Assembly: GCA_947259175.1 (NCBI GenBank)
Contig: CAMYKW010000024.1
Location: 37,951 to 99,706 of the forward strand
Direction: 5' to 3'
Length of the DNA: 61,756 nucleotides
Origin: an uncultured Gammaproteobacteria bacterium
GTDB lineage: Bacteria > Pseudomonadota > Gammaproteobacteria > Arenicellales > JAANXG01
Shown: positions 10,654-19,387 of the stretch, one piece after another
How positions within the stretch are numbered: the first letter of the stretch is position 1
How the letters are laid out: every line of letters begins with the position of its first letter
Translations under genes and position numbers: made by a program
Notes under the pieces: model-generated
What the model was told of the DNA's origin: nothing
What the model saw: only the letters and a program-made list of their open reading frames with translations
The model's database searches: none

Positions 10654-12279
10654 ATGCGCGACCTGACCCCACCGATCTTGATCTTGTTCGACTGGCATGC
10701 GACCTTGGCGGACACCATGGAGGCGATGTACGCGGCGATGGACGACATGCTTGCGGAGCTCGATGAGCTCAATTTACGCGCCCGGCTGACCCCGGCGGCC
10801 AGCAGCAAGACAGACGAAGATCGCAGACTGGTCGCGTACGTCAAGGCCCACCGGCAGGTGCACCCGAAACTTAGAGCGGAAAAAAAAGTCTCCCGCACTG
10901 ATCTTCTGGAGGTGTTATTCGGGCCGGACGAGGAGGCCAAGCACCTCGCGCATCAGGCGTTCAATCGGCATTACCGTGACCATTACGGGGACGTGTTGCC
11001 GTTCGAGCCCGGAATTCGCAAGGTAATCGAGGCGCTCAAGGCGCGGGGTATAAAGGTCGGGATCCTGACCAACCGCGTACACGAGTTCCTCGCCCATGAA
11101 CTGGAGGAGATCGAGGACGGTGGTTGGGATGATCTGTTCGAGATCATCGTCGCCGGCGATGACAGCAAGCGACTGAAACCGTGGCCGGACCCTGTTTACA
11201 AAGCGCTGCAATTAGCCGATCTGCGCCCCGACGCCGACATCTGGTACGTGGGAGACAGCACCACCGATACCATGTCCGCGAAAACCGCGGGGATCACCAA
11301 CGTGTTTTTTAACGGCGCCAGGTGGGAGCCGGATTGGATAAGCAAGATTTTCCCGGGCACGCCGGAGCATCCCGATAAACCGGACTGTGTGGTCAACGGC
11401 TTCGCTGAGTTGTTAACACTCGTGGAACGATGCTGGGCACAGAAGAAAGAACGCGATCTGTACAGGCTCGCAGTACCATCGGTGATCCTGTTTGACTGGC
11501 ATGCGACGCTGGTCGATACCCTGGATGCGATGTACCACGCGGTGGACGATATGCTGATGCAACTCGAACCCCTGGGCCTGGTGAGGCGACTGATTGATCC
11601 ACGGCAGAGTAAGAACGTGGATGACCAAAAACTGGTTGAGTATGTCCGGGAAAACTACGCGCTGCACCCCAAAGTCAAAGCCGCACGCAAGATCTCTCGT
11701 ACCGACATCTTTGAGATATTGTTCGGCGACGATTTTGAAGCCAAGCAGACTGCACACGAAGCATTCAACATCTGCTATCGTTTGCATTACGGCGCGGTTG
11801 AGCCGCTGGAGGCGGACATACCAGCCATGCTCAAGCGATTGCGCGCGCTCGGAATCAAGACCGGTGTATTGAGCAATCGCGACCGGGAGTTTCTGGAGCA
11901 CGAATTGGGGGCGGTGGATGGCGTCGGCTGGATCGATTTGTTCGACACCATCGTTGCCGGCGACGACCCGCAGCGGCGCAAACCGGAGCCGGACCCGATC
12001 TACAAGGCCCTGGAGAATCTGGGCCTCGCGCCCGGCAGCGATTGCTGGTATGTCGGCGACAGCACCACCGACACGATTGCAGCGAAGAATGCCGGGACCA
12101 CGAGCATCTTCTACAACGGCGCCAAGTGGGATAAGGCCTGGCTGGCGAAAATTTTCCCCGGCACCGATCGACATCCTCACCAACCGGACTTGGTGGTCGA
12201 CGACTTCCGCGAGTTGCTGCGGATAGTGGAGCAGGTAAAGGCGCGTGTCAGCGCCGCTGAGGGAACCGCCGGGCCGTGA
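10654..12279 (+). CDS. Tandem-duplicated HAD-family hydrolase (two domains fused)
   Basis: A 541-residue protein made of two homologous HAD domains, about residues 5-255 and 275-530. Each repeats the same landmarks: FDWHATL (residues 12-18 and 280-286), a cap beginning near VHPK/LHPK and SRTD, motif II Thr/Ser in ILTNR and VLSNR, a Lys in KRLKPWPDP and RRKPEPDP, and motif IV WYVGDSTTDT. In both halves the second Asp of the usual DxDGT motif is His (DWHAT), which removes the standard general acid/base residue. The fold and cap resemble phosphoglycolate-phosphatase-like HADs, but the substrate is unknown. Internal duplication followed by parallel retention of DxH suggests both halves are functional. 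Confidence 0.85.
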   Translation: MRDLTPPILILFDWHATLADTMEAMYAAMDDMLAELDELNLRARLTPAASSKTDEDRRLVAYVKAHRQVHPKLRAEKKVSRTDLLEVLFGPDEEAKHLAHQAFNRHYRDHYGDVLPFEPGIRKVIEALKARGIKVGILTNRVHEFLAHELEEIEDGGWDDLFEIIVAGDDSKRLKPWPDPVYKALQLADLRPDADIWYVGDSTTDTMSAKTAGITNVFFNGARWEPDWISKIFPGTPEHPDKPDCVVNGFAELLTLVERCWAQKKERDLYRLAVPSVILFDWHATLVDTLDAMYHAVDDMLMQLEPLGLVRRLIDPRQSKNVDDQKLVEYVRENYALHPKVKAARKISRTDIFEILFGDDFEAKQTAHEAFNICYRLHYGAVEPLEADIPAMLKRLRALGIKTGVLSNRDREFLEHELGAVDGVGWIDLFDTIVAGDDPQRRKPEPDPIYKALENLGLAPGSDCWYVGDSTTDTIAAKNAGTTSIFYNGAKWDKAWLAKIFPGTDRHPHQPDLVVDDFRELLRIVEQVKARVSAAEGTAGP

Positions 12280-13784: not shown

Positions 13785-14981
13785 CGGCGTCATCCTAATC
13801 GTTGGAGCGCAACCTGCGCGTGCTCTAACAGAGCAATGGCGAGGTACGCCTGGAATCGAAGAATTCGGTACGATCGTCCTAGATTCCAGGGAAGCGTAGA
13901 TAAAAATCCAACTCTGCACCGAGTTCAAAATCCATAAATGACCAAATATCCCGCTCACGCCGAAAAATCCGCCACTACCGCCTCACTCGTGCAATATCCA
14001 GGTAGCCCCCTGCTGCGCCTATCCCAGGGACACGCAAGCGAACTCAACGATGATCTCCGTCGGCGGCAGCCGCCTGAACGTGGCCATTGAGCACGCCGAG
14101 TTTCACCTGCCGAAGCAGGAAATATTGGACTGGATACGCCGCAGCGCCGAGGTGGTTATCAGATATTATCGCCGCTTTCCGACCAAGCAGGCCTACATCG
14201 GGGTGCGCGCCGCCCAAGGCGCCGGAGTGAAAAGCGGACGCGCGATTAGACACGGTCCCACCGTAAACGTAAGCGTGGGCGTGGCGTCCACGGTCGACGA
14301 CTTGGAGGACGACTGGGTATTGATTCATGAATTCATTCATTTGGCATTCCCCAGGGTTCCGCAGCGTCATCATTGGATCGAAGAAGGACTTGCGGTTTAC
14401 GTCGAATCCATCGCGCGCGCCAACGCAGGTACTTTGACATCGGAACAGGTGTGGCGCGGATTTGTACGCGGCATGCCTCACGGACTGCCGCGCAGCGGCG
14501 ACCGCGGACTGGATTTCACCCCGACCTGGGGCCGCACCTACTGGGGCGGCGCGCTGTTCTGTTTGCTCGCCGACATCGAAATCCGCAAGCAAAGCGGCGG
14601 GAAAATGACCCTGCGAGATGCGCTGCGTGGCGTCATCAACGCCGGATTTGATATGACTGACCAGGTCGATTCACTGCCGAGCGTGCTCGCGGTCGCCGAC
14701 GCGGCCACCGGGACAGCCGCCCTGACCGGGCTCTATGAGCGCATGAAGGACTCCGCCGAGGCCATTGATCTCGCCGCCCTGTGGCATCAACTCGGGATCG
14801 ACTCCCAGGAAGAGAAGTTACGGTTTAACGGCCATGCGCCCCTTGCGGGGATGCGCGCGGCGATCACCGCCGTGACCGGGACACACACCCATGAGCCGGA
14901 TAACAAGGATTTCACCTATTGAACTGAAGCGGTGAGTCGGCATCTAATGCCACATTAATAACACTCTAAAAGATAGCCAAG

Positions 14982-15488
14982 ATGAGACGACGCACTTTTT
15001 TGGCCGGTTTGTTGGGACTCGGCGCCGCCGGGATTGCAAGCACTCGCATTCTGAGCGCCGGCACCGCCGAGCAGGGCCGCAGCCAAATCGAGAAGATCCA
15101 TAAGACCGATGCACAATGGAAGCAGCAACTGACCCCCGACGAGTATTATGTGCTGCGCGAGGAGGGCACGGAACGGCCTTTCAGCAGCCCCTTGAATAAG
15201 GAATACCGGAAAGGCGTGTACGTATGCGCCGGGTGTGGTTTCGAGCTGTTCCGGTCCGACACCAAGTACGACAGCGGTACCGGCTGGCCGAGCTTTTATG
15301 CGCCGATCGAGGGCCACCTGGCAACCAAAACCGATTTCAAACTCATTTACCCCCGCACCGAGTATCACTGCGCGCGCTGCGGCGGCCATCAAGGACACGT
15401 GTTCAAAGATGGGCCGCCACCCACCGGAAAACGCTGGTGTAACAACGGCGTTGCCCTGCGGTTTGTCCCGCAACAGTCGAACTCCTAA
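14982..15488 (+). CDS. msrB: Peptide-methionine (R)-S-oxide reductase MsrB, Tat-exported
   Basis: Reduces methionine-R-sulfoxide in proteins. The 168-residue protein opens with a twin-arginine signal (MRRRTFLAGLLGLGAAG), so it is probably exported folded to the periplasm. The MsrB domain has two zinc-binding CxxC pairs (CAGC near residue 82, CARC near 131), the signature GTGWPSF and the catalytic Cys in RWCNNGVALRF (about 152). The Tat-exported form suggests repair of oxidised envelope proteins. It sits alone between the peptidase remnant and the dikinase-like gene, on the same strand. Confidence 0.92.
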   Translation: MRRRTFLAGLLGLGAAGIASTRILSAGTAEQGRSQIEKIHKTDAQWKQQLTPDEYYVLREEGTERPFSSPLNKEYRKGVYVCAGCGFELFRSDTKYDSGTGWPSFYAPIEGHLATKTDFKLIYPRTEYHCARCGGHQGHVFKDGPPPTGKRWCNNGVALRFVPQQSNS

Positions 15489-15692: not shown

Positions 15693-18641
15693 ATGACTTT
15701 GACCGCCAGCGCACACACCGATGACGACGCAGTCCGCGCACGCGTCGTGCGCATAGCCGGGTGGATACCGACGATGGCGGTCGCTGCGCTGTTAGCGGCG
15801 GGGGCAACACACGCCTCGGGCGACTCTGCCGAATTGCCGGATCTGATCGAAGCCATGAAAAGCTCCGCTACCGGCCCCTTTGACGAGCTGCGCTGGTTTT
15901 GCTTCGACGGCACCGTCCGCCCTCCCGAGGCGGGCTCATGCGCCGGACACGAAGGCGGAGTACAGCGGGGGGCGTGGAGCGCCGATACCCGACGCGTTCG
16001 CGCCCGTGGTTTTCATATTGCCAACGTGTTCGAAGGCATGGATATCGAGGCATTGTTGCGGGCGCCGGATCTTGTCGATGTCGTCAAGCAGTTCGTGCTC
16101 GAGCAGTATCTGATCTCGGCCGACGACGGTTGGATCTACCGGCGCGCGCGCTTTCACCGGGGTATTCTTCATGCCGAGGGCGAGGCGGAAGCGGTACGGC
16201 GACTGCTGGAGGGTCTGCTGGTTCAGCCGGCATGGCAGCAGCGCCACCATTGGGTTCTGCGGGAAGCGGTTCGATGGCTGCCGCACCTGCGCGAGACTCG
16301 CGTGTTGACGCGAACCCGGCGGCTGGCAAGCAGGATCGCCGACGCCGACGCCCAGTTTGCGGCGCTGCGCAATAAGATTCACGTGCGGCCGGGCCCGGAG
16401 GACGCCCAGTCGGTGCGTAACTACACGCAAAGCTTAGCCGCCAGCGTGCCGCGTTATGACTACCTGCGCCTCGCCGAGTTGCTCGACCGTGTGCACCATC
16501 CGCCGGCCGCCGCCGCGTTGCTCGCCGAGCTCGCAGCCGCAGTCCCCGATTCCTCGTACATACAAGGCCTGACAAGCAGCGCAGGGCTGGACGCCAACAT
16601 CAGCGGGCCGTTGCAGCGGCTGGTCGCGTATGCACGCGTTCTCGCCGAACTGCGGGAGGGGGTTTTTGCGAACGATGTACCGTCGCTGGCGCTCGAGCTG
16701 CTCGATATCGGCACCATTGCGGAGCGGGACATCTTCGCCGCTACGGCGCTGTTGCGTGCCGAACTTGCGACTGCCAGCCGCCGCACACGTCTCGTCTGGC
16801 TCAGACATACGGCACGGGCTCTGTACGGGATGGGCCTGATCTCGGAGCGGCAGTGGCGCGGTGTAGAGGGCAGTTTCAACGCGCTAGGCGACAAGTCGGC
16901 CTCGCTTGATACCTATCGTACTGAAGTGCGCTATTTGTCACGGGTACCGCACTGGGCGCAGCGCGCACTGGATTTCCACTTCGGCGAATCGGTAACACAT
17001 TTGTCCGTATTGGAACCCCGGGTGCGGCTGTATTTCGACGACCGGCTGCGTGGGTCGCCGCTGTTGTTTTACGCCGACGTGGTAGATACCCTGGTGGCAG
17101 ACGCGAATCGACTTGCCGGGGTGCGCCACGAAATCTTCGGCGCCCGGGTCGACACCGGTCTTCGCGCCCTCAATCCCGGTATCGCCCGCGGCACCCTGCG
17201 CGCCGGCCTCGAGGCAACGGTGGATCCCGAAGGACTGTATATCCTGCCAGCCACGACACTCGAATTGCCGCGGGTCGGCGGCATACTCACCGCCGGGGAG
17301 GGGAACGCCTTGTCCCATGTACAGCTCCTGGCACGCAACCTGGGCATTCCCAACGTGGCTGTAGACGCGCGCTTGATCCCGGTGCTGGAGTCTCACGCCG
17401 GAAGGCGCGCGGTGTTGGCCGCAAGTGCCGGGGGAACGGTGCGCATCGCCGAGGATGGACCACGCTGGAACTCGTCATTCGGCGACGCGCGTGCGTCCAC
17501 CCGCATTCGGGCAAATGTCGAAAAACTGGATCTCAGTGCGCGGCGGCTGGTGACGCTGGATCAAATTCGAGCTGCGCACTCGGGCCGCATCGTCGGCCCG
17601 AAAGCGGCGCACCTGGCGGAACTGAGGCACCACTTTCCCGGCGCCGTGGCGCAGGCGGTAGTGATCCCCTTCGGGGTGTTTCACAAACATCTGCAATACG
17701 AGGCATGGCCGCAAGGACCGGCGATGTCCACGTGGATGCGCTCACAATATCGTGCGCTCGCGCAGCGCGGCGCAAACCCGCAGCGGCAGCGTGAGGACAC
17801 CGCGCGGTTTCTTTCCCGGGTTCGGAGTTGGATCCTGGATCTCGAGCTCGACGACGGGTTTGTCGCGAAACTCGGCGCGGTGATGCACAACACCTTTGGC
17901 ACCGATGGCAGTTACGGCGTATTCGTGCGCAGCGACACCAATGTGGAGGATCTGCCCGGATTCACCGGCGCCGGCTTGAATCTGACCGTGCCCCACGTAG
18001 TCGGTTTCGAGAATATTCTGGATGCGATCAAGCGCGTGTGGGCCTCCCCGTTTCGCGAACGCGCCTATTCCTGGCGACAGGGACGCATGCAGGCACCGGA
18101 ACATGTCTATCCCTCGGTGTTATTGATGCTGAGTGTGCCGGTGGAGAAGTCTGGGGTGTTGGTGACCCGCGATATCGACTCGGGCAGTGCGGACGTGTTG
18201 TCGGTGGCGGTGAACGAAGGCATCGGCGGCGCGGTGGCGGGACAGGCCGCGGAAGAGCTGAGAATTGAACTGGCCACCGGGCGCACCCGCTTGCTGGCGC
18301 AGGCCACTGCGCCGCGCAAACGCGTGCTACGTGCGCGCGGCGGGCTGACCAAGGTGCCCGCCGACGGCCGCGATAGGGTGCTCGAAGATACGGAGATCCA
18401 ACGCCTGCTCACATTCGCCCGCGCGCTGCCCGATCGCTACCCGCGACTGACCGACGAATCTGGCGAATCGGTACCGGCGGACGTGGAGTTCGGATTCCGC
18501 GACGGAAAGCTGGCGTTGTTTCAGATTCGGCCGTATCTCGAGGATTCGCGCACCCGGGGTAACCGCTTTCTGACGACGCTGGACCGTCGTGCGGAGCACG
18601 CAACCGGCAAAGTGGTGAATCTCCTGGAACGGCCGGGATAA
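15693..18641 (+). CDS. Exported protein with phosphohistidine and PEP-synthase ATP-binding domains (dikinase-like)
   Basis: About 982 residues from ATG 15693. A signal-like segment (WIPTMAVAALLAAGATHASG, about 27-46) precedes a helical region of about 450 residues with no family I recognise. A swivelling phosphohistidine domain follows (GNALSHVQLLARNLGIPNV, His about 542), then a PPDK/PEP-synthase N-terminal ATP-binding domain (GRIVGPKAAHLAEL; FVRSDTNVEDLPGFTGAGLN; ending EFGFRDGKLALFQIRPY). The order His-domain then ATP domain is that of glucan/water dikinases, opposite to PEP synthase. An ATP-using enzyme with an export signal is odd. The start is uncertain: the frame is open from 15561. 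The 3' end overlaps mtgA by 121 bases on the other strand. Confidence 0.75.
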   Translation: MTLTASAHTDDDAVRARVVRIAGWIPTMAVAALLAAGATHASGDSAELPDLIEAMKSSATGPFDELRWFCFDGTVRPPEAGSCAGHEGGVQRGAWSADTRRVRARGFHIANVFEGMDIEALLRAPDLVDVVKQFVLEQYLISADDGWIYRRARFHRGILHAEGEAEAVRRLLEGLLVQPAWQQRHHWVLREAVRWLPHLRETRVLTRTRRLASRIADADAQFAALRNKIHVRPGPEDAQSVRNYTQSLAASVPRYDYLRLAELLDRVHHPPAAAALLAELAAAVPDSSYIQGLTSSAGLDANISGPLQRLVAYARVLAELREGVFANDVPSLALELLDIGTIAERDIFAATALLRAELATASRRTRLVWLRHTARALYGMGLISERQWRGVEGSFNALGDKSASLDTYRTEVRYLSRVPHWAQRALDFHFGESVTHLSVLEPRVRLYFDDRLRGSPLLFYADVVDTLVADANRLAGVRHEIFGARVDTGLRALNPGIARGTLRAGLEATVDPEGLYILPATTLELPRVGGILTAGEGNALSHVQLLARNLGIPNVAVDARLIPVLESHAGRRAVLAASAGGTVRIAEDGPRWNSSFGDARASTRIRANVEKLDLSARRLVTLDQIRAAHSGRIVGPKAAHLAELRHHFPGAVAQAVVIPFGVFHKHLQYEAWPQGPAMSTWMRSQYRALAQRGANPQRQREDTARFLSRVRSWILDLELDDGFVAKLGAVMHNTFGTDGSYGVFVRSDTNVEDLPGFTGAGLNLTVPHVVGFENILDAIKRVWASPFRERAYSWRQGRMQAPEHVYPSVLLMLSVPVEKSGVLVTRDIDSGSADVLSVAVNEGIGGAVAGQAAEELRIELATGRTRLLAQATAPRKRVLRARGGLTKVPADGRDRVLEDTEIQRLLTFARALPDRYPRLTDESGESVPADVEFGFRDGKLALFQIRPYLEDSRTRGNRFLTTLDRRAEHATGKVVNLLERPG

Positions 18642-19387
18642 CACACGTTACCGGCACCGGCGTTGACCCTCGCGGTCAGCTCCAGGGCGCTCACGTACCC
18701 CATGCTTTCGAGCTGCTCCATTTGACGCAGAATCCACCGTGTCCGGCCGCGCACATACGGCGATGGCCCGCTGATCTTGAGCCTGCGCGGATTCGGCAAC
18801 ACCGCCGCCAGCAACGCCGCCTCGTAGGCGTTCAACCCGGCCGGCGGCTTGGAGAAGAAACGTCGACTCGCCGCCTCCACCCCGAATACGCCGGGCGCGA
18901 ATTCGGCGATATTCAGATATACCTCCAGAATACGCCGTTTCGACCATAATAGTTCGAGCATCACGGTCAAATACGCCTCCACTCCTTTGCGCAAATAACT
19001 GCGCCCTGGCCACAGGAACAGGTTCTTCGCCACTTGTTGCGTGATCGTGCTGGCGCCGCGCACCTGGGTGCGCTGTTTGCTTTCCTGTAACGCACTCTTT
19101 ATCTGTTGTATATCAAAACCCCAGTGGCGGAGGAACTTCTGATCCTCGGAGGCGATCACCGCGAGCGCCATATGGGGCGATATAGTCTCCCAGGCGGTCC
19201 AGCGGTAGTCCATTTCCGCACCGCGGTGGCTGGAAAAATACTGACTGCGAAGCATGAAGGCGGAGGTGGGCGGAGGTATCCAGCGCAGCGCCCCTATCAC
19301 GGTAATGGACGTGATAATCACGACGGCTACGAGTCTCAAGATCAGCCGGCGGAAACCACGACGCCGGCGCCTGGATTTAGCCCGCAT
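18521..19387 (-). CDS. mtgA: Monofunctional peptidoglycan transglycosylase MtgA
   Basis: Polymerises lipid II into glycan strands at the inner membrane. The 288-residue protein has a basic N-terminus, one transmembrane helix (LILRLVAVVIITSITVIGAL, about 15-34) and the GT51 domain with EDQKFLRHWGFD, RGASTITQQVAKNLFL and KRRILEVYLNIAEF. The GT51 domain ends around residue 235 (RQMEQLESMGYV). The last 50 residues are not typical and lie antisense to the 3' end of the dikinase-like gene, which suggests a lost stop codon or frameshift that extended the reading frame. Confidence 0.9.
   Translation of the reverse strand: MRAKSRRRRRGFRRLILRLVAVVIITSITVIGALRWIPPPTSAFMLRSQYFSSHRGAEMDYRWTAWETISPHMALAVIASEDQKFLRHWGFDIQQIKSALQESKQRTQVRGASTITQQVAKNLFLWPGRSYLRKGVEAYLTVMLELLWSKRRILEVYLNIAEFAPGVFGVEAASRRFFSKPPAGLNAYEAALLAAVLPNPRRLKISGPSPYVRGRTRWILRQMEQLESMGYVSALELTARVNAGAGNVCYPGRSRRFTTLPVACSARRSSVVRKRLPRVRESSRYGRI

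Follow-up and report, generated by a model that had tools for sequence, protein, structure and literature searches.

The DIK gene and its product

The window analysed here, that is, the whole stretch of DNA examined, comprises 61,756 nucleotides of contig CAMYKW010000024.1 (GenBank assembly GCA_947259175.1) from an uncultured gammaproteobacterium. The gene of interest, which we term DIK, occupies positions 15693..18641 on the + strand and, based on its open reading frame (ORF) and Pfam matches, is predicted to encode an exported dikinase-like protein of 982 amino acids with its swivel domain first. On balance we favour the view that DIK works in the periplasm as an ATP-driven dikinase on an envelope substrate, using ATP that a transporter passes across the inner membrane, and that the window gene is a stand-alone paralogue of this system.

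The DIK frame opens with an ATG at 15693 and its stop codon ends at 18641. Translation may instead begin at an in-frame GTG at 15747, from which a shorter and more typical signal sequence would result. The signal sequence, with a positively charged n-region and a hydrophobic core, spans residues 1-41 (15693..15815, +), and inspection suggests that cleavage after THA41 is likely; signal calls throughout are based on hydropathy, charge and inspection. An N-terminal domain follows (residues 43-479; 15819..17129, +), delimited by alignment and model. It includes a short beta part that carries the motif W-[FY]-C-x-D-G and a second cysteine (C70 and C83), and the rest of the domain is all-helical in the predicted model. 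The swivel (phosphohistidine) domain lies at residues about 479-588 (17127..17456, +) and its predicted catalytic histidine, His542, is encoded at 17316-17318, within EGNALSHVQLLARNLGIPN. The PPDK_N ATP-grasp domain extends over residues 633-958 (17589..18566, +); both domains were placed by Pfam, alignment and model. The swivel is thereby first in the order of domains and the ATP domain last.

Pfam matches for the window protein were to PPDK_N at residues 633-958 (E 1.8e-27, 97 bits against a cut-off of 27) and to the phosphoenolpyruvate (PEP)-utilizers swivel, PF00391, at 519-555 (E 5.3e-5, 23.2 bits against a cut-off of 23.1). PPDK_N was found in 15/15 family members scanned. No significant Pfam family was detected for the N-terminal half of the window protein, nor a usable one for the family members up to E 10, and a sequence search of the PDB gave no usable match. 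Modelled alone (predicted local distance difference test, pLDDT, 79.5; predicted template modelling score, pTM, 0.76), this half had no usable match among PDB folds either by Foldseek (best E 0.38) or by VIA-align (best Z 7.8, for a helical model). An earlier note, made from the letters of the window and their translations, had proposed an N-terminal half with no recognised family, and these searches agree with it. The model of full-length DIK is of low confidence (pLDDT 64, with four sequences in the alignment), and so only its ATP-domain and swivel matches are used here. The ATP half matched rifampin phosphotransferase 5hv1 (Z 24.7, root mean square deviation 3.2, 292 aligned) and PEP synthase 2ols (Z 24.5). 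For model residues 437-546 the match was to the 5fbu swivel, also from rifampin phosphotransferase (Z 8.0, root mean square deviation 3.6, 95 aligned), and 9hmz (Z 8.0) and 2e28, a pyruvate kinase (Z 7.8), tied with it. Comparison of the window gene with its relative L012 gave a nonsynonymous rate (dN) of 0.184 and a synonymous rate (dS) of 0.842. This constraint, together with the 43 other members in a 44-row alignment, which share 27-71% identity with the window protein, argues that DIK is not a chance ORF.

A signal-like hydrophobic core precedes the conserved domain in all 44 family members. The exported dikinase-like protein with a swivel ahead of its ATP domain, as the earlier note described it, is thus borne out by both the Pfam order and these 44/44 starts; homologues without a signal-like start, which the note had considered evidence to the contrary, numbered 0/44. 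Positive charge is higher before the core than after it in 39/44 members, with 5/44 lacking such a bias, and if the window copy is read from the ATG, its core begins late. Both C70 and C83 are present in 44/44 aligned members, and in 31/44 they are the sole cysteines of the mature part, as would be expected of a disulphide in an oxidising compartment. Over a larger set of 55 different members, C70 occurs in 54 and C83 in 53; the exceptions are L021, whose row is incomplete, and L090, in which C83 is replaced by Ser.

The residues H542, K637, R746, D930, E932, Q944 and R946, which we take to be the equivalents of the catalytic residues of PPDK, are conserved. H542 is kept in 43/44 aligned members and all seven are kept in 41/43 rows complete in this region, and in 52/54 members of the larger set (L117 is cut off by a contig end). 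The window protein has its ATP-binding residues, and the broken ATP sites that the earlier note had held would refute its proposal are confined to 2/54 homologues: L085, in which six of the seven residues are replaced, and L084, which carries D930N. These two have the two longest branches in the dikinase tree. L085 (genome G339) retains its signal and may be a pseudo-enzyme.

Genes associated with DIK

Relatives 27-72% identical to the window protein were found in the window's order and in named records, namely one gammaproteobacterial metagenome-assembled genome (MAG), two deltaproteobacterial MAGs and Polaribacter. The second deltaproteobacterial match is a fragment, and longer matches are present in its genome. 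We surveyed samples of genomes for the order, for the window's phylum, for the Polaribacter phylum and for the phylum of the deltaproteobacterial MAG L007, each including its centre genome. DIK was identified in 14/100 genomes of the order (by long matches alone; with PEP synthases included the figure is 68), in 24/398 of the window's phylum, in 11/296 of the Polaribacter phylum and in 3/297 of the L007 phylum. No DIK relative was detected among viral contigs by a pattern scan or among plasmids at E 1e-30.

Partner families were found by clustering the genes around 24 DIK loci, after which profiles A1-A4 were applied to 44 loci; the tally of loci relied on a simple ORF caller instead of a gene finder. 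Two gene families recur in most of the 24 loci, one encoding Beta-lactamase2-fold proteins and the other a protein similar to the TLC ATP/ADP transporters. The former comprises two kinds of exported protein, which we name hydrolase A and hydrolase B. Hydrolase A is present in 38 of the 44 loci, hydrolase B in 33 (one of these matches, at L117, being weak at 67 bits), the transporter in 24 and all three in 22; we refer to the set as the module. Its commonest order is DIK, hydrolase A on the same strand, and then hydrolase B and the transporter in varying orientation. Hydrolase A is missing from the window, L067, L069, L085, L108 and L117; a contig end truncates both L067 and L117, and the genome of L108 (G678) carries hydrolase A and a transporter elsewhere. 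Two further DIK loci, L173 and L174, both have a transporter within two genes of DIK. That of L174 (G1068) encodes a divergent DIK with intact catalytic residues and has a transporter close by and no hydrolase A in the available stretch, which indicates that the link between DIK and the transporter can exist without a hydrolase nearby. Gene clusters found in 3 to 6 of the 24 loci were also recorded, and the five that were scanned encode an ABC transporter, GGDEF/EAL, GGDEF and HD-domain proteins and a short-chain dehydrogenase. At L066, L068 and L076, from three genomes of the window's genus, the module DIK has upstream of it, on the opposite strand, a block of genes for GGDEF/EAL, GGDEF and HD-domain proteins.

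Both hydrolases have the features of serine hydrolases of the beta-lactamase fold. Beta-lactamase2 (PF13354) scored above its cut-off in 5/6 hydrolases, hydrolase A of L080 reaching 19.7 bits against a cut-off of 22. In hydrolase A the SxxK and SxN motifs are present in 38/38 proteins and KSG in 34/35 that reach it, L084 having KGG. In hydrolase B, SxxK is present in 36/36 that reach it and SxN and KSG in 37/37. Sequence searches against solved structures gave no match for hydrolase A at E 0.1 and a weak one for hydrolase B (best E 1.5e-4), and the NCBIfam class A models scored far under their cut-offs against hydrolase B. Hydrophobic starts were seen in 37/38 and 35/37 of the two hydrolases. 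The charge pattern of the DIK signals, the conserved C70 and C83 and the predicted export of the partner hydrolases together favour a location of DIK on the outer side of the inner membrane.

The transporter matched PF03219 above cut-off in 8/9 proteins scanned (26.7-77.3 bits, cut-off 21), and most of the length of the family's profile could be matched to solved ADP,ATP carriers (9j3n, 4.2e-26; 9j3j, 2.1e-17). In Arabidopsis NTT1, K155 and K527 are reported to matter for nucleotide binding (PMC3306366), and K155, E245, E385 and K527 have been called crucial for transport (PMC10654386). We placed these residues on the profile alignment without a numbered reference sequence. So placed, the K527 position is Lys in 25/25 transporters and the E385 position E or D in 25/25; an invariant lysine, Lys36 (24/24), lies three residues ahead of K155, whose placement is tentative. 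The module transporter is thus a remote member of the superfamily and a putative carrier of nucleotides. In a tree the linked transporters are spread over at least three lineages, of which one is HEAT-fused, one is formed by the window's family and family f51, and one includes L007, L079, L083, L114 and L117. Those of the Polaribacter phylum are about 940 residues long and have HEAT repeats in 5/5 scanned. These clades are taken from a tree that includes three very long rows (MOD_L072_2389, OTH_L169_3 and OTH_L170_6); in a repeat tree without them, the label "linked" needs 7 changes, at least 6 of them by well-supported branches. Since different carrier lineages accompany the same DIK, it is suggested that transport function is what counts in the partnership. 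The transporters of L161 and L164 are on the same contig as DIK, 2.6 kb away. In L151, L153 and L160, from f51 genomes, linked-clade transporters were found on contigs other than that of DIK, as if the gene had moved away from DIK within this family.

DIK and its partners also occur together across genomes. Hydrolase A was found in 14 genomes of the order sample, 13 of them among the 14 with DIK. The mismatches are G058, which is 74% complete, and G098, where hydrolase A is at a contig edge. A transporter-like gene is present in 14/14 DIK genomes of the order versus 20/86 others. In the Polaribacter-phylum sample hydrolase A is present in the 11 DIK genomes and no other, and the transporter in 11/11 DIK genomes versus 15/285 others. 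Fisher p values for hydrolase A and the transporter, uncorrected for relatedness, are 2.7e-14 and 3.2e-8 in the order and 3.2e-20 and 2.4e-13 in the Polaribacter phylum. A PF03219 search of 28 DIK genomes left five without a match, and 0/14 named control genomes matched. A search with the transporter profile, run outside f51, recovered the gene in three of the five (G192, G500 and G562). Because the PF03219 search misses such true transporters, we claim absence only where the profile search agrees. A transporter was identified in 50/52 DIK genomes checked, these being the 14 of the order sample, the 11 of the Polaribacter-phylum sample, 24 more and three found by linkage. Neither search detected one in G339 (one contig, 100% complete) or G168 (97% complete), and the DIKs of these two genomes are L085 and L084, the two with altered ATP sites. 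This pattern goes the way that a model of ATP supply predicts and is suggestive, two cases being few.

The window genome encodes two copies of DIK that are 47% identical, the window's own and one on contig C9. In the dikinase tree the window copy forms one clade with L067 and L069. No partner gene was found within 43 kb downstream of the window DIK, nor within 9.4 kb downstream in L069. L067 is uninformative in this respect, as its contig ends 0.4 kb downstream. Beside the second DIK copy, C9 carries the transporter, hydrolase A and a hydrolase B that looks broken. The window gene is thus a stand-alone paralogue, and the full module is located elsewhere in its genome. The hydrolase B on C9 (L066:12308-12991, - strand; G000:C9) is an open frame without the SxxK part and the signal, and the gene looks interrupted by a frameshift or an assembly error.

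The genes adjacent to DIK in the window appear to be neighbours only. Upstream, at 14982..15488 (+), a Pfam match identifies a methionine sulfoxide reductase B (SelR domain) whose start is signal-like, and downstream, at 18521..19387 (-), a convergent transglycosylase (PF00912), whose gene overlaps the 3' end of DIK by 121 bp (18521-18641). Further upstream are a 290-amino acid protein (14050-14922, +) with no Pfam match at E 0.001 and a HEFIH sequence like a zinc metallopeptidase site; a DDE group 1 transposase (PF13701; 12471-13784, +); and a protein with tandem HAD-type hydrolase domains (10654-12279, +), both of which contain DWHATL and apparently arose by internal duplication.

Possible sources of ATP for DIK

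An ATP-dependent enzyme outside the cytoplasm presents a puzzle, for which the earlier note offered two ways out: a cytoplasmic orientation of the protein or a phosphate donor other than ATP. Neither is the best supported, given the charge bias of 39/44 signals and the ATP sites kept in 52/54 members. A transporter near the relatives of DIK (24/44 loci) and in all DIK genomes of the two samples (14/14 and 11/11) provides a third. The family, domain order, signal, intact catalytic residues, gene linkage and co-occurrence described above are all sequence-based; what they suggest is the dikinase chemistry, the donor used in vivo, the phosphate acceptor and substrate class, and the transport of ATP and its direction. 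In the mechanism that we propose, DIK would be exported through the inner membrane, where its C-terminal ATP domain would phosphorylate His542 of the swivel, with release of AMP and phosphate. The swivel would then pass this phosphate on to a substrate bound by the N-terminal helical domain. The likeliest substrate is an envelope polymer or a product of the two exported beta-lactamase-fold serine hydrolases, which may act on the same envelope substrate as DIK. A transporter of the TLC/NTT type would supply ATP outside the cytoplasm in exchange for spent nucleotide, and the window copy may draw on ATP from the transporter encoded on C9. That the module as a whole is an envelope system with its own ATP supply, in which an NTT-type exchanger exports ATP and the exported dikinase phosphorylates an envelope polymer or hydrolase product, is a credible but more tentative proposal, with the chances lying a little below even.

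Several observations weigh against the proposed mechanism. No transporter is present in the available stretch of 20/44 loci, the window included; 5/20 of these cover less than 2.5 kb downstream. In f51, the family that contributes most DIK genomes of the phylum sample, a transporter is nearby in only 2/11 loci, and G116, G120 and G124 gave one transporter each, of another clade and on another contig. The L107 transporter has no PF03219 match at E 0.001, and the five transporters scanned with NCBIfam TIGR00769 scored 21-55 bits against a cut-off of 387. The position of K155 is uncertain and that of E245, as placed, is not conserved. TLC-like genes occur without DIK too, as the 20/86 and 15/285 genomes above indicate. 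The loci are mostly related, so that the p values overstate independence; the transporter profile, being derived from linked members, is biased towards detecting them; and the two genomes with altered ATP sites are a small number. Finally, characterised NTTs mostly import nucleotides, according to one account (PMC5381601).

This last point speaks for a reading in which the transporter imports and DIK either uses outside ATP, from lysed neighbours or secreted, or runs in reverse, consuming AMP, phosphate and a phosphorylated substrate to make nucleoside triphosphate, so that the set would serve to scavenge nucleotides or phosphate. Periplasmic ATP and its hydrolysis have been reported for E. 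coli (PMC7432876, in which how ATP gets to the periplasm is called unclear), and the linkage data cited for export count for import as well. Two beta-lactamase-fold hydrolases would nevertheless be odd in a nucleotide-salvage set, and no phosphatase or nucleotidase was seen among the five recurrent clusters scanned (cluster 5 left out), which is a weak argument. We regard import as unlikely, though with a real chance of being correct. In another reading the module is a secreted set for inactivating drugs or toxins, with DIK phosphorylating an antibiotic-like compound in the manner of rifampin phosphotransferase and the hydrolases opening ring compounds in the manner of beta-lactamases. The ATP half has rifampin phosphotransferase as its best structural match, and Beta-lactamase2 is above cut-off in 5/6 hydrolases. 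PEP synthase ties with that match, however, so that it names only a fold; the domain order is unlike that of rifampin phosphotransferase; the hydrolases, as noted above, have no or weak matches to solved structures and fall far below the class A cut-offs; and resistance sets do not typically stay beside one and the same gene across phyla. Such a role seems decidedly improbable.

The two ways out of the earlier note, in which an anchor at the N-terminus keeps the enzyme in the cytoplasm or the phosphate comes from another donor, would require no ATP outside the cell membrane, and ATP is normally scarce in the periplasm. The late core of the window protein when read from the ATG and the 5/44 members without charge bias would also fit. 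Set against these are the bias of the other 39, the 31/44 mature parts with only two cysteines, the hydrophobic starts of nearly all hydrolases and the ATP-site residues kept in 52/54 members, and we consider this reading highly improbable. Concerning the window copy itself, it may have lost the ancestral role and work alone, for instance with envelope material or a soluble periplasmic compound as its substrate. Its clade with L067 and L069 and the partner-free stretches downstream in the window and L069 agree with this, while the catalytic residues and purifying selection that it retains, and the hydrolase A, broken-looking hydrolase B and transporter on C9 of the same genome, argue against it; a lone role seems improbable.

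NTT genes are on record in free-living bacteria without known function, according to PMC5381601. If the proposal of an envelope module with its own ATP supply is true, it would explain the purpose of at least some of them. The company that DIK keeps with the transporter hints at an unrecognised way of running ATP-driven chemistry in the cell envelope. With a conserved NTT-type transporter and an exported enzyme with an intact ATP site side by side, NTT function and periplasmic ATP supply become directly testable together.

Comparison with known systems

The earlier note likened DIK to the glucan, water dikinases, and this likeness holds for the domain order. In the plant enzymes GWD and PWD, as in DIK, a swivel domain with a catalytic His comes before a C-terminal PPDK-type nucleotide domain, and the dikinase chemistry of the plant enzymes would be expected in DIK. 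The GWD1_pHisD profile matched 5/15 DIK members without significance (best E 0.063). DIK differs from GWD and PWD in being an exported bacterial protein. No starch-binding module was recognised in it, there being no carbohydrate-binding module (CBM) among the Pfam families listed for 15 members at E up to 10. Motifs of the helical half look by eye somewhat like the central region of plant GWD, a resemblance to which we give no weight. The nucleotide domain of GWD is placed at the C-terminus in PMC5575247, and its His is described as receiving the beta-phosphate of ATP in PMC7569903. Structures of GWD and PWD are stated to be still lacking in PMC12892837.

With PEP synthase and PPDK, DIK shares the ATP-grasp domain (PF01326), the swivel (PF00391) and the ATP-site residues. 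Unlike them, it is exported, has the two domains in reversed order and has another N-terminal half. DIK ends soon after its ATP domain, and a C-terminal PEP/pyruvate barrel was detected neither in the window protein (Pfam to E 10) nor among the 11 families listed for 15 members. The best NCBIfam equivalog score of the window protein was 95.1 bits against a cut-off of 883. Rifampin phosphotransferase has the same folds of the ATP domain (5hv1) and swivel (5fbu); its domains are in the opposite order to those of DIK, which in addition is exported and has an N-terminal half that is unmatched.

The module transporter has PF03219 and the match to 9j3n and 9j3j in common with the TLC/NTT transporters of Chlamydia, Rickettsia and plastids. 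In contrast to these, the module transporters constitute remote subfamilies, lie beside an exported DIK and are HEAT-fused in the Polaribacter phylum. Among the matches listed in a literature search, which had most subscription papers and preprints outside its reach, no paper dealt with an exported dikinase linked to an NTT. Eukaryotic lumenal kinases such as Fam20C are fed ATP by SLC35B1. Like the proposed module, this pair combines ATP-dependent phosphorylation across a membrane with a dedicated nucleotide exchanger, and the module, if it operates as proposed, would be a bacterial counterpart of eukaryotic lumenal phosphorylation, although Fam20C and SLC35B1 are unrelated proteins of the eukaryotic secretory pathway. 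The parts of the module thus belong to known superfamilies; the novelty lies in the export, in a bacterial enzyme having its swivel first and in the partnership.

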